Source of the DNA: Polyangia bacterium
GTDB lineage: Bacteria > Myxococcota_A > Polyangia > Polyangiales > JAUICN01
NCBI GenBank assembly: GCA_030427835.1
Contig: JAUICN010000006.1
Span: 1 to 64,000 of the forward strand
Direction of reading: 5' to 3'
DNA length: 64,000 nucleotides
In this document: positions 32,122-36,841 of the stretch, piece by piece
Layout: each line of letters opens with the position of its first letter
How positions within the stretch are numbered: position 1 is the stretch's first letter
Notes under the pieces: generated by a model
What the model saw: only the letters and a program-made list of their open reading frames with translations
What the model was told of the DNA's origin: nothing
Databases searched by the model: none
Program-made: the position numbers and the translations under genes

Positions 32122-32243
32122 GTGTCCTAAGTATTTGAAATAAAAAAGTAATTTGTGAATGCCCATGCTGTGGTGGGTACCGCTATTGGGCGCGGTTGTC
32201 CGGGTTCTGGCGTTACGGTTTTGGTCGCCCCATAGTAGATGCC

Positions 32244-33071
32244 GTGAGCATTCGTTTTGAGAAGTACCAGGGGCTAGGAAACGACTTCATCATTGTGGAG
32301 ACGCCCGAGCTTTGGTCCGCGCAACGGGTCAGGCAAACATGCGATCGGCACCGGGGGGTGGGTGCCGACGGCGTGTTGTTCGTCGACTACCTGGGTGTTC
32401 CCGGAAAGCCAGCCACCCCCAGAATGCGCGTCATCAACTCAGACGGAAGCCAGCCTGAAATGTGCGGCAATGGACTGCGTTGCGTCGTGAGGTACTTGGC
32501 GGATCAAGGCAAGGTATCAGGCGGCAGGATCATCGTAGAGACCGACGCGGGCCCCCACACCTGCACTTACGACGACCAAACGGTCACCGTAGAAATGGCT
32601 GTCCCCTCCTTCGATCCCAGCGACATCCCCACCACCTCCCCCACCCCCCTAATCAACCACCCTCTCCCCCCCCAATGGGGCCTGGCCCCAGACATTCGAA
32701 TGACAGCCCTATCTATGGGCAATCCCCACGCCGTGTTGTTTCACGTGCCTGAAGCCGCAGTAGAAAACACTGCACAGGCCGCTGCCACCGCAGATCTGTT
32801 CCCTAGTGGTGTTAACGTAGGGATCGCAAACGACTCGACGGAAAACAGCCTGAGCCTGCGGGTTTTTGAGCGAGGTGTGGGCTGGACTCAAGCATGTGGA
32901 ACCGGTGCATGTGCGGCAGCTGTCGCTGCCGTTGAGAGTCGTGACTACCCAAGGCACCAGTGGATTTCAGTTCTGTTGCCAGGTGGATCCCTCCAGATTC
33001 AAGTGGGAATGTCCAGTGAACCTGTGCAAATGCGGGGTCCAGCCGAGCAAGTCTTCTCCGGCACGCTCTAA
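32244..33071 (+). CDS. dapF: Diaminopimelate epimerase, 275 aa
   Basis: Converts LL- to meso-diaminopimelate for lysine and peptidoglycan. The two catalytic cysteines are Cys74 in PEMCGNGLRC and the Cys in TQACGTGACA. GLGNDF near the N-terminus is the conserved opening. GTG 32244 gives the usual length; a TTG 48 bases upstream adds a non-conserved tail. It is directly followed by the parS cluster. Confidence 0.95.
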   Translation: MSIRFEKYQGLGNDFIIVETPELWSAQRVRQTCDRHRGVGADGVLFVDYLGVPGKPATPRMRVINSDGSQPEMCGNGLRCVVRYLADQGKVSGGRIIVETDAGPHTCTYDDQTVTVEMAVPSFDPSDIPTTSPTPLINHPLPPQWGLAPDIRMTALSMGNPHAVLFHVPEAAVENTAQAAATADLFPSGVNVGIANDSTENSLSLRVFERGVGWTQACGTGACAAAVAAVESRDYPRHQWISVLLPGGSLQIQVGMSSEPVQMRGPAEQVFSGTL

Positions 33072-33095
33072 GCCGCAATACCCGCCTTTCGCTAC

Positions 33096-33123
33096 CCAAC
33101 CAATGGTAGCCAACCAATGGTAG
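33096..33123 (+). repeat. Tandem 14-bp repeat beside the first parS site
   Basis: CCAACCAATGGTAG occurs twice in a row, and a third partial copy (CCAACCAAT) leads into the parS arm at 33134. Confidence 0.5.
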
Positions 33124-33133
33124 CCCAACCAAT

Positions 33134-33149
33134 TGTTTCACGTGAAACA
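33134..33149. other. parS site 1 (ParB-binding centromere element)
   Basis: Perfect TGTTTCACGTGAAACA, the consensus bound by ParB/Spo0J in most bacteria. The palindrome extends outward as CAATTG on both sides to 33130-33153. ParB loads here and spreads, which drives chromosome segregation. Confidence 0.9.
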
Positions 33150-33165
33150 ATTGCCCCACCCCATT

Positions 33166-33203
33166 GGGGCCAGACCCTCGCGCTTTCGATGGGGTCAGGC
33201 CCT
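33166..33203 (+). repeat. REP-like motif pair left of the RAYT gene
   Basis: GGGGCCAGACCC (33166-33177) and GGGGTCAGGCCCT (33191-33203) are close variants, like the short GC-rich palindromes mobilised by RAYT transposases. The inverted copy of the second lies at 33991. Confidence 0.55.
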
Positions 33204-33231
33204 GCACGGCAGAGTCTTGGTGATCTTCCAA

Positions 33232-33247
33232 TGTTTCACGTGAAACA
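33232..33247. other. parS site 2
   Basis: Perfect TGTTTCACGTGAAACA, 98 bases from site 1. Only the core is conserved; the outer CAATTG arms are partial (AA on the left lost, CAATT on the right). Confidence 0.9.
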
Positions 33248-33276
33248 ATTCAAGAAAAGAATCGGAAGCACACAAC

Positions 33277-33297
33277 TATCGACACTCACGGTCGATA
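33277..33297 (+). repeat. 7-bp hairpin just upstream of the RAYT gene
   Basis: TATCGAC and GTCGATA are exact complements separated by 7 bases, ending 7 bases before the RAYT start. Single-stranded hairpins at a gene edge are the kind of feature Y1 transposases recognise, but this link is inferred. Confidence 0.4.
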
Positions 33298-33304
33298 AGT
33301 GGGC

Positions 33305-33847
33305 ATGACGCGTCCATTGCGATTTCAAGAACCGGGGTTCCCCTACCACATCGTTTGCCGAGGAGTGCGCAGGGAGCGACTTTTCTTCTGCGATCGTGAC
33401 TACCAACGTTTTCAGGGCTTCATGATGCAAGCCTCCCTGAAGATTCCGATTGCTGAGCTTGGCAACTGTTTGATGCCCAATCATGTTCATATTGCCATTC
33501 AACCACACGAGAGGGGGCACCTAGCAAAATGGGTACATCGGGTAACAACCATGTACGCGATGTACTTCAACAGAACCTATGGGAAACAAGGGCATGTATT
33601 TCAAGGTCGCTATTTCTCCGAACCCATCTTGGAAGAAGAAGATCTTCCTCGGGTACTCCAGTACATTGAGAGAAACCCGTTGGCAGCCGGCCTCGTCCGG
33701 CGGGCGGAGGACTGGGAGTGGTCAAGCTTAAGACTCAGGGGCGCACCAAATCGGGCTGTACTTGAATACATTGCTCGTGACTATCCTGCGTGGCTAGAAG
33801 CCATAAACGCACCACGTCCATCAGACGCTCCGTACCAAGGCAGATAG
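33305..33847 (+). CDS. REP-associated tyrosine transposase (RAYT), Y1/HUH family, 180 aa
   Basis: The HUH metal site is MPNHVHIAI (His60 and His62). GHVFQGRYFSEPI after a Tyr-rich helix is the RAYT C-terminal signature, and ERNPLAAGLVRRAEDWEWSS completes it. These enzymes nick single-stranded palindromes and spread REP sequences. The gene sits between parS sites 2 and 3 and between inverted REP-like motifs. Start ATG 33305 is preferred to GTG 33299. It appears intact. Confidence 0.9.
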   Translation: MTRPLRFQEPGFPYHIVCRGVRRERLFFCDRDYQRFQGFMMQASLKIPIAELGNCLMPNHVHIAIQPHERGHLAKWVHRVTTMYAMYFNRTYGKQGHVFQGRYFSEPILEEEDLPRVLQYIERNPLAAGLVRRAEDWEWSSLRLRGAPNRAVLEYIARDYPAWLEAINAPRPSDAPYQGR

Positions 33848-33853
33848 ACCAAT

Positions 33854-33869
33854 TGTTTCACGTGAAACA
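33854..33869. other. parS site 3
   Basis: Perfect TGTTTCACGTGAAACA extended by CAATTG arms to 33850-33873, as for site 1. It begins 6 bases after the RAYT stop codon. Confidence 0.9.
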
Positions 33870-33990
33870 ATTGGTAACCCACTAGCATACTTGGCGAGTC
33901 ATCTGAGGCCTCAGAGAGTGCTACTCGACGGCTCGGCACACAGGTTCCGCACCCGCATAGGATCAGATACGCAAAAGCGCTAGAAGGACT

Positions 33991-34002
33991 AGGGCCTGAC
34001 CC
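33991..34002 (-). repeat. REP-like motif right of the RAYT gene, inverted
   Basis: AGGGCCTGACCC is the exact reverse complement of GGGTCAGGCCCT at 33192-33203, so the RAYT gene lies between inverted 12-bp copies. Confidence 0.55.
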
Positions 34003-34031
34003 TCACGGGTTCGGGTACAGGTTGAGGTAAT

Positions 34032-34047
34032 TGTTTCACGTGAAACA
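34032..34047. other. parS site 4
   Basis: Perfect TGTTTCACGTGAAACA, 178 bases from site 3, with AATTG/CAATT arms (34029-34050). Confidence 0.9.
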
Positions 34048-34086
34048 ATTGGTTGGGAAGGCAAAGGGAAGCGTAGGTTGTAGAGG

Positions 34087-35019
34087 TCAGAGTCTAACTG
34101 GGGAGGCGGGCTGAGTTGAATCCTGGCCCGAGGCTGCTCTTAGGTGATCGGCAACTTCTGGGTCACCTGGGGGGGGAAGCTGTACTTGAACGTGCACGAT
34201 GACATCACCTGGCGCCTTTCCACGTGCAATTCCTTTTCCTGGAATCCTCAGTTTTGAACCTGGCTGCGAACCAGGAGGTACTTTGAGGCGTACTGCACCA
34301 GAAACCGTGTCCACTGCGAAGCTTGTGCCTTCATAAGCTTCAATAAGCGAAATGGTCGCTCGCACATGCAGGTCGTTTTGCTCCCTCCAGTAGTTGGGGT
34401 GGGGTGCCACCGCTACCTTCAGTAGCAAGTCGCCTGCGCCGGCGGGGCCTGGCCCTCCTTGACCTCGGAGGCGGATGGTTTCGCCGTCGCGCACGCCTTT
34501 GGGTATGCGTACTCGAACGGTGCGGTCTCCTCCTCCGGGTTCCGAAAAGGTTAGCTCCCGTTCGGTGCCCCGTAGGCTTTCCACGAAGGTGATGGATATG
34601 GTGGAACGAAAGTCCACCCCAACGCCTCCACTGCTGGACGCCCCTGCACCGCCAAACATGTCCTGTAGGTCGGCCGAGCGAAGTAGGTCCTCCAAATTGA
34701 AGTCGCCAAAGTTAAATGATTGAAATCCTTGATTAAATTTCGATCCCCCACCCCGTTGGGGCCTGGCATAGTTGGGATCAAAGCCGTCCTGGAGTGCCGC
34801 TTCTCCGAACTGGTCGTACATGGACCGTTTTTGGGGGTCCTTGAGCACGGCGTAGGCGGCTGAAACGGACTTAAAGCGTTCTTCTGCTTGGGGATTGTCC
34901 GGGTTCCTGTCCGGGTGGAGCTCCTTAACCAGCGCGCGGTATGCCTTCTTGAGGTCATCCGTGGAGGCCTGCTTCGATACTCCCAGTTCTGCGTACAAAT
35001 CCTTCACTCGCCCGTGCAC
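34087..35019 (-). CDS. DnaJ/CbpA-type J-domain protein without zinc finger, second copy, 310 aa
   Basis: The J-domain includes KKAYRALVKELHPDRNPDNPQ with the HPD motif, then a Gly/Phe-rich linker (GSKFNQGFQSFNFGDFNLEDLL). C-terminal beta domains follow (RIPKGVRDGETIRLRGQGG, GDVIVHVQVQ). No zinc-binding cysteines. The order matches CbpA-like DnaK co-chaperones. It differs clearly from the J-protein at 23631. Divergent from uppS by 89 bases. Confidence 0.85.
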   Translation of the reverse strand: MHGRVKDLYAELGVSKQASTDDLKKAYRALVKELHPDRNPDNPQAEERFKSVSAAYAVLKDPQKRSMYDQFGEAALQDGFDPNYARPQRGGGSKFNQGFQSFNFGDFNLEDLLRSADLQDMFGGAGASSSGGVGVDFRSTISITFVESLRGTERELTFSEPGGGDRTVRVRIPKGVRDGETIRLRGQGGPGPAGAGDLLLKVAVAPHPNYWREQNDLHVRATISLIEAYEGTSFAVDTVSGAVRLKVPPGSQPGSKLRIPGKGIARGKAPGDVIVHVQVQLPPPGDPEVADHLRAASGQDSTQPASPVRL

Positions 35020-35108: not shown

Positions 35109-35957
35109 ATGACGTACGTCCATGTGAGTCGGTTGCCTGCCCATGTGGCGATCGTAATGGACGGCAACGGCCGATGGGCGCAACAACAAGGAAAACCACG
35201 TCCTGAAGGTCATCGCGTGGGTGCCAAGGCCGTACGCAGGATTGTGCGACTGTGTCGTAGGCTCGGGGTTCCATCGCTTACGCTCTACGCCTTCAGCGAA
35301 CAGAACTGGGATCGTCCTCGATTCGAAGTCGACGCGCTGATGGGCCTCCTCCACGAGTTCCTAGTGAGCGAACGAGATGAAATCCTCCACAACTCCATTC
35401 GGCTTCGTTCTATTGGTGATGAGGATCGATTGCCGCCCTTCGTACGCAACGTGTTGACACCCCTGTGTGAACACAGCGCGAACAATAAGGGTATGACGCT
35501 GACCCTTGCCCTCTCCTACGGTGGACGAGAAGAACTTGCCCACGCCGCCCGCGCACTGGCTGAGCAAGTGTCCCAGGGCACATTGAATCCGGAAGACATC
35601 AACGAACAGCAACTCGAAAAACACCTGCCTTCCATGGTACCCGGCCCAGTCGATCTTTTGATTCGCACGGGTGGAGAACAGAGGATTAGCAACTTTCTTC
35701 TTTGGGGAACCGCCTACGCAGAGTTGTTCTTCACGCCGAGCCTGTGGCCGGACTACACCGAGGCAGATTTCATGGAAGCGATTGCAGCGTTCCAACATCG
35801 TGAAAGGCGGTACGGCCTCGTTCAGGGTCAGCAACCCGCCCATTCCACAGCCACGCCTGAAGGTTCAAGTACATCCCAAGGCGCAGATACACCGCAGGAG
35901 CGCTCCACCGAAACGAATCATCCCGCCCTGGAACTGATACGTGGTGCGCTCGCGTAG
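35109..35957 (+). CDS. uppS: Isoprenyl transferase (undecaprenyl diphosphate synthase), 282 aa
   Basis: Makes C55 lipid carrier from isopentenyl and farnesyl diphosphate, needed for peptidoglycan and surface glycans. VAIVMDGNGRWA holds the catalytic Asp; RTGGEQRISNFLLWGTAYAE is the second signature. The C-terminal 40 residues are a hydrophilic Ser/Thr/Pro tail beyond the normal end, unusual. cdsA follows 23 bases later. Confidence 0.95.
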   Translation: MTYVHVSRLPAHVAIVMDGNGRWAQQQGKPRPEGHRVGAKAVRRIVRLCRRLGVPSLTLYAFSEQNWDRPRFEVDALMGLLHEFLVSERDEILHNSIRLRSIGDEDRLPPFVRNVLTPLCEHSANNKGMTLTLALSYGGREELAHAARALAEQVSQGTLNPEDINEQQLEKHLPSMVPGPVDLLIRTGGEQRISNFLLWGTAYAELFFTPSLWPDYTEADFMEAIAAFQHRERRYGLVQGQQPAHSTATPEGSSTSQGADTPQERSTETNHPALELIRGALA

Positions 35958-35980: not shown

Positions 35981-36841
35981 ATGTCCAATCTTATCGTTCG
36001 AACCCTCACCGCTCTGGTGGCAGCACCGTTGTTGATTGGTGCACTCTTCGTGGCTCCGCCCTGGGTGTTCGCAGTGCTTGGTGCACTTACCGCCCTGGTT
36101 GCCGCCACAGAGCTGGGTTCCATGGTGGCCCCCCAACACACGGCCCTCCGAAGGTACCTGGTCATCGCGTCCCTGACGGTACACCTGTTGTGGGCGCATC
36201 TGCTTTCAGATCGGTCTCTCGGAGGATACCCCTGCATCCCCGACTTCCCACTCCTGCACACCCTGCCGTTACTCGCTCCAGTGGTGCTTACGGTATTCGG
36301 CGCTTTGATTTCCATGACACAGGTACTGCCCATGGCCACGGCCTCCACCCGCATGGGCTGGATGATCGCAGGGCCCTGGTACGCGGGGGCGCTCCCGGCC
36401 ATCCTCGTGTTGCTCCACCAGCAACCCCACGGGGCCAGCTGGGTATTGCTCGCCATGCTTCTTGCCTGGCTTGGAGACACGGGCGGTTATTTCGCAGGAA
36501 AGATGTGGGGCCGCCGGCCCATCGCACGCAACATCTCCCCCAACAAAACGGTGGCAGGTTCCCTTGGCGGCACGGCCGGAAGCCTCCTGGGTGCCCTGTT
36601 GGTTCACCTGTTTTTGCTTCCCCATGTAGCTCTTGTGCCCATGTTGATACTTGGTCTCGTGGCCTCATACATGGGCCAGTGGGGAGATCTCGTGGTCTCT
36701 GTGATCAAGCGAAGCTCTGGCGTAAAGGATACGGGTCGTATCATTCCAGGTCACGGTGGCCTGTTGGATCGAATCGATGCGCTACTGCTCACCGGGTTCA
36801 CCACTTGGATTTTTGTACAAGTTATGTACAGCACCCCCTGA
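35981..36841 (+). CDS. cdsA: Phosphatidate cytidylyltransferase, 286 aa
   Basis: Polytopic enzyme that forms CDP-diacylglycerol for phospholipid synthesis. The C-terminal signature is VIKRSSGVKDTGRIIPGHGG followed by LDRIDALL. The two Asp residues of that block bind metal. It is cotranscribed with uppS, a common bacterial pairing. Confidence 0.9.
   Translation: MSNLIVRTLTALVAAPLLIGALFVAPPWVFAVLGALTALVAATELGSMVAPQHTALRRYLVIASLTVHLLWAHLLSDRSLGGYPCIPDFPLLHTLPLLAPVVLTVFGALISMTQVLPMATASTRMGWMIAGPWYAGALPAILVLLHQQPHGASWVLLAMLLAWLGDTGGYFAGKMWGRRPIARNISPNKTVAGSLGGTAGSLLGALLVHLFLLPHVALVPMLILGLVASYMGQWGDLVVSVIKRSSGVKDTGRIIPGHGGLLDRIDALLLTGFTTWIFVQVMYSTP

Follow-up and report, generated by a model that had tools for sequence, protein, structure and literature searches.

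The locus lies within a 64-kb window, the whole stretch of DNA analyzed here, at the start of the 212-kb contig C3 in a 30-contig draft assembly of 3,319,294 bases. Four exact copies of the 16-mer TGTTTCACGTGAAACA occur there within 0.92 kb (33134, 33232, 33854 and 34032), flanked by dapF on the left and a dnaJ-like gene on the right, with a single transposase gene between the second and third copies. The copies are referred to as parS1 to parS4, and the features are as follows.

32196..33071, + strand: dapF, left flank of the cluster; in family f12 relatives it likewise lies close to parS
33124..33161, + strand: left arm of an inverted repeat, 38 nt, containing parS1
33134..33149: parS1, exact TGTTTCACGTGAAACA; the palindrome reaches 33130-33153, with arms CAATTG/CAATTG
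33232..33247: parS2, exact 16-mer, without extended palindromic arms
33299..33847, + strand: RAYT gene (Y1_Tnp, HUH-type), 182 aa, between parS2 and parS3
33854..33869: parS3, exact, within a 28-bp perfect palindrome (33848-33875) with arms ACCAATTG/CAATTGGT that starts right after the RAYT stop codon
34020..34057, - strand: right arm of the inverted repeat, 38 nt, containing parS4
34032..34047: parS4, exact, with arms AATTG/CAATT
34087..35019, - strand: dnaJ-like gene, right flank of the cluster; parS adjoins its orthologue in many relatives
35109..35957, + strand: uppS, conserved neighbor
35981..36841, + strand: cdsA, conserved neighbor

All four sites are intergenic, and a search of the window at up to two mismatches returns the same four and nothing else, where shuffled sequences lead one to expect 0.03. 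The first-pass annotation had reported four exact copies at these positions and extended palindromic AATTG arms on three of them; both observations are confirmed, the arms being those of parS1, parS3 and parS4. It had also identified the repeat as a ParB-binding centromere element. The sites match exactly the consensus palindrome of ParB, TGTTNCACGTGAAACA (PMC7022226), they are clustered, and the genome encodes one ParB with parS-type residues, all of which argues for that assignment. Locally, the element is of a known kind, an ordinary parS as judged by its sequence, with what appears to be an unusual transposase insertion.

Across the whole 3.32-Mb assembly there are no other exact copies of TGTTTCACGTGAAACA, with 0.0008 expected from the base count. 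The sole further strong candidate at up to three mismatches is TGTTTCACGTTAAACA, a one-mismatch site on contig C1 (C1:11545) that sits between topA and a DCC1-like gene; the other 18 matches in the genome all have three mismatches, and a reversed-pattern control gives nine. The genome-wide scan that the first-pass annotation had proposed therefore finds the sites at one place rather than scattered, with one imperfect site elsewhere. In relatives, a search for topA near parS, to a distance of about 10 kb, found none. At loci L027 (10029) and L028 (9997) parS overlaps possible gene starts, as does the one-mismatch site at L024 (10000); read as a gene start, ATGTTTCACGTGAAACA gives the N-terminus MFHVKH (bioF in G013).

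Several smaller repeats accompany the sites. The 13-bp pseudo-palindrome GGGGYCWGRCCCC clusters around parS at window positions 32677, 33166, 33191, 33991 and 34444, with one copy ending exactly 28 nt before parS2 and another likewise before parS4. It is also present at L024 9980, 8 bp from the one-mismatch site. In 652 kb of the genome's own DNA, six of its nine matches at up to one mismatch fall in the parS cluster and C1:11545 loci, a post hoc count, and none was seen near parS in 22 loci of relatives. A unit of about 14 nt with the core CCAACCAATKG occurs three times in tandem, running into parS1 (33093-33135), and elsewhere in the 652 kb this core is found only as an inverted copy at parS4 (34046). 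We also note a parS half-site, TTGTTTCACGTG, within dapF (32736-32747), 0.4 kb from parS1; the ParB of Pseudomonas aeruginosa has been reported to bind half-sites (PMC7022226).

The first-pass annotation was right that the window holds no parB or dnaA. A single ParB scores over the family cut-off in the genome, on the 10.7-kb contig C21, with a ParA gene directly upstream, and the single DnaA over its cut-off is on the 9.1-kb contig C24. In its DNA-binding domain the C21 ParB can be aligned with ParBs whose structures have been solved (6t1f, 7bnk), and where Caulobacter ParB has R173 and G201 it too has R and G, residues reported as conserved in ParBs and exchanged for Q and R in Noc (PMC7383237). 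In the ParBs of nine relatives (L163-L171) R173 and G201 are kept, and Lys or Arg occupies the position of Caulobacter A184, where Lys is permissive in the ParB-to-Noc switch (PMC7383237). ParA adjoins ParB in 9/9 of the relatives' loci read, which come from the 11 relatives with single-contig chromosomes described below. Compared with these nine parAB loci, the C21 neighborhood has folD in common with four and a large tRNA synthetase gene in common with two. From this shared gene content, parAB of the present genome also seems to lie at an inherited address.

The address of the sites themselves is conserved in the order. The 14-bp core GTTTCACGTGAAAC was found in 124 of 184 genomes (a reversed control in one genome), with one to five copies in most cases (range 0-8), which among the matches listed usually share a contig. 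The exact core is absent from the other 60 genomes, which include 13/13 searched genomes of family f5 and many genomes of genus g4; this absence weighs against the centromere reading and could stem from variant parS, loss or gaps in assembly. In 40/40 examined relatives having sites, parS lies next to bioF/bioD/MoxR and/or dnaJ/uppS/cdsA. One of them, G009, has the gene order bamA-cdsA-uppS-dnaJ-parS-parS-bioF-bioD, and in family f12 parS is surrounded by dapF, aroKB, bioF and bioD. In the window the sites stand between dapF and dnaJ-uppS-cdsA; a search of contig C3 found neither bioF nor bioD. A scan of genome contigs with the dnaJ-like protein gave only distant DnaJs and no informative synteny. 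Across the 40 relatives examined, parS is found in one shared neighborhood (dapF, aroKB, bioF-bioD, dnaJ-uppS-cdsA).

The transposase gene is peculiar to this genome's copy of the locus. Its product matches Y1_Tnp (E 7e-13) and REP_Tyr_transpos (E 8e-19), the latter at 67.9 bits and thus under the model's curated cut-off of 80 bits, and an HVH motif can be read in the translation. No other Y1_Tnp gene was found in the genome, and the GC content of this one is 0.526 versus 0.577-0.589 in the neighboring genes and 0.589 in the window. No relative of the protein was detected by phmmer among all long open frames at 40 homologous parS loci; for the 13 relatives whose genomes are finished or nearly so, the search covered about 1.5 kb per side of a site. 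Because RAYT is absent from these loci, it is probably a lineage-specific intruder, most simply explained by insertion into an existing centromere. The first-pass annotation had proposed that the gene either inserted into the cluster or is hosted by it; the comparison with the 40 loci identifies RAYT as an addition to the cluster. Among the papers searched, none mentions both parS sites and a RAYT.

We consider it very likely that the four palindromes constitute the ParB-loading parS centromere of the main chromosome, at a locus inherited within the order that RAYT would have entered in this lineage. Going by what is established for ParABS, ParB from C21 would load on the four sites as a CTP clamp and slide across several kb of flanking DNA, the transposase gene included, and ParA would move the resulting partition complex, giving the locus its presumed function in segregation. 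One parS site is usually enough, so the spacing between sites would be free to change. The locus would descend from an ancestor within the order, with bioF-bioD to one side of it and dnaJ-uppS-cdsA to the other; in the present lineage bioF-bioD is not at this place, and the RAYT gene would have entered between the sites.

A possible, if rather doubtful, extension of this explanation is that the transposase also shaped the cluster: fewer ancestral sites would have been present, and RAYT, or gene conversion or repair linked to its insertion, would have copied a parS unit into inverted pairs. The sites would function as parS all the same. The two 38-nt arms that contain parS1 and parS4 are 92% complementary and enclose the RAYT gene in inverted orientation, so a parS unit may have been copied locally as the gene inserted or later, and parS3 begins directly behind the RAYT stop codon. 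Three of the four sites have CAATT(G) arms, whereas extended palindromy is only weakly above expectation in 99 parS sites of the order. The flanks common to the four sites exceed the presumed need of ParB, a hint that some other process copied DNA locally, and in G009, a syntenic relative, there are two sites. On the other hand, relatives that lack RAYT also carry three to five sites (up to eight), and the genome contains no dispersed parS copies except the one-mismatch site.

It is very unlikely that the palindromes are instead the REP elements of the transposase, a REPtron whose resemblance to parS is coincidental. Palindromic REPs are common on either side of RAYT genes (PMC6006769), and here a single HUH-type Y1 transposase gene has flanking palindromes, with a GTAG at 33120-33123, 6 nt to the left of the parS1 palindrome. 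However, no GTAG or GTGG adjoins the palindromes of parS2, parS3 or parS4, the palindromes are not dispersed in the genome, and they match the ParB consensus exactly. Unlike the elements of a REPtron, they are present at the same place in 40 relatives, none with RAYT there, which largely refutes this reading. Word counts and motif scans of the 652 kb for a dispersed REP family belonging to RAYT yielded nothing but the local GGGGYCWGRCCCC and other repeats that have no connection with the locus, and Rfam gave no match in the window. Finally, parS and parAB are on different contigs, as they might be if C3 were a secondary replicon or an integrated plasmid with its own centromere, but this is hardly credible given that housekeeping genes (dapF, uppS, cdsA) flank the sites, relatives carry the same neighborhood on a chromosome-sized contig, and the genome has a single ParB over the cut-off.

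With the four sites taken as the chromosomal centromere, their distance from the origin and from parAB was assessed in the 11 relatives that have parS, dnaA and parB on one chromosome-sized contig. These are non-independent, spanning six genera of two families, and two of the chromosome lengths are rounded. parS is separated from dnaA by 0.11-1.48 Mb, or 1.1-12.2% of the chromosome (median 9.5%), and from parB by 34-49% (median 45%, the maximum possible being 50%); dnaA and parB are 25-48% apart. C3 of the present genome contains neither parB nor dnaA. If parAB is on the same replicon as parS, the two must therefore be separated by no less than 33 kb on the left side or 178 kb on the right. 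That parS is separate from parAB, as noted in the first-pass annotation, is thus strongly supported, both by the 212-kb contig devoid of parB and by the distances in relatives. The companion claim, that the window is near the origin, is only partly supported. The distances of the orthologous locus from dnaA favor it, and the locus would accordingly be expected on the origin side of the chromosome, but in the draft C3 cannot be joined to the contig with dnaA, and the GC skew of C3 stays close to zero across most of its initial 36 kb and is mainly negative beyond, with no origin-like switch or minimum at parS. In two single-contig relatives that were sampled, the skew is too weak for placing an origin, so that "near the origin" rests on dnaA.

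Compared with the universal chromosomal ParABS systems built on TGTTNCACGTGAAACA (Bacillus subtilis, Pseudomonas aeruginosa, Caulobacter), the present one has the same 16-bp site in a small cluster, one ParA/ParB pair, and the R/G specificity residues in ParB. It differs in that parAB is not near parS, being almost antipodal to it in relatives, and in that the cluster is split by a transposase gene. Normally, parS and parAB are described as one origin-proximal unit. A canonical linked locus of this type, with parAB near parS and oriC, was found neither on the 212-kb contig of this genome nor in the 11 relatives. The first-pass annotation had drawn an analogy to Myxococcus, which holds as far as both are ParABS systems with parS clustered within a few kb. 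In other respects it is too loose: M. xanthus has 22-24 parS sites with the consensus TGTTCCACGTGGAACG, in a cluster at a distance of about 4 kb from parA and of about 30-35 kb from oriC (PMC3899335, PMC3778016), unlike the four GTTTCACGTGAAAC-type sites beside dapF/dnaJ, which are unlinked from parAB.

For specialists, the surprise is the order-wide uncoupling of parS from parAB, which lies outside the window. No description of it was found in the literature searched, and publications on parS and parB in Sorangium offered nothing relevant by title and abstract. We think it unlikely that the near-antipodal spacing throughout the order is selected rather than a frozen accident; were it selected, a possible reason would be that late replication of parAB results in a low or cell-cycle-timed dose of ParA and ParB. 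That RAYT lies within the cluster suggests that a mobile gene can be taken up into a centromere, and it permits one to ask how ParB spreading affects the expression of that gene. By keeping its centromere at a fixed bioF/dnaJ-uppS address with parAB far off, the order offers a natural experiment on whether it matters to segregation that parAB is linked to parS and oriC.
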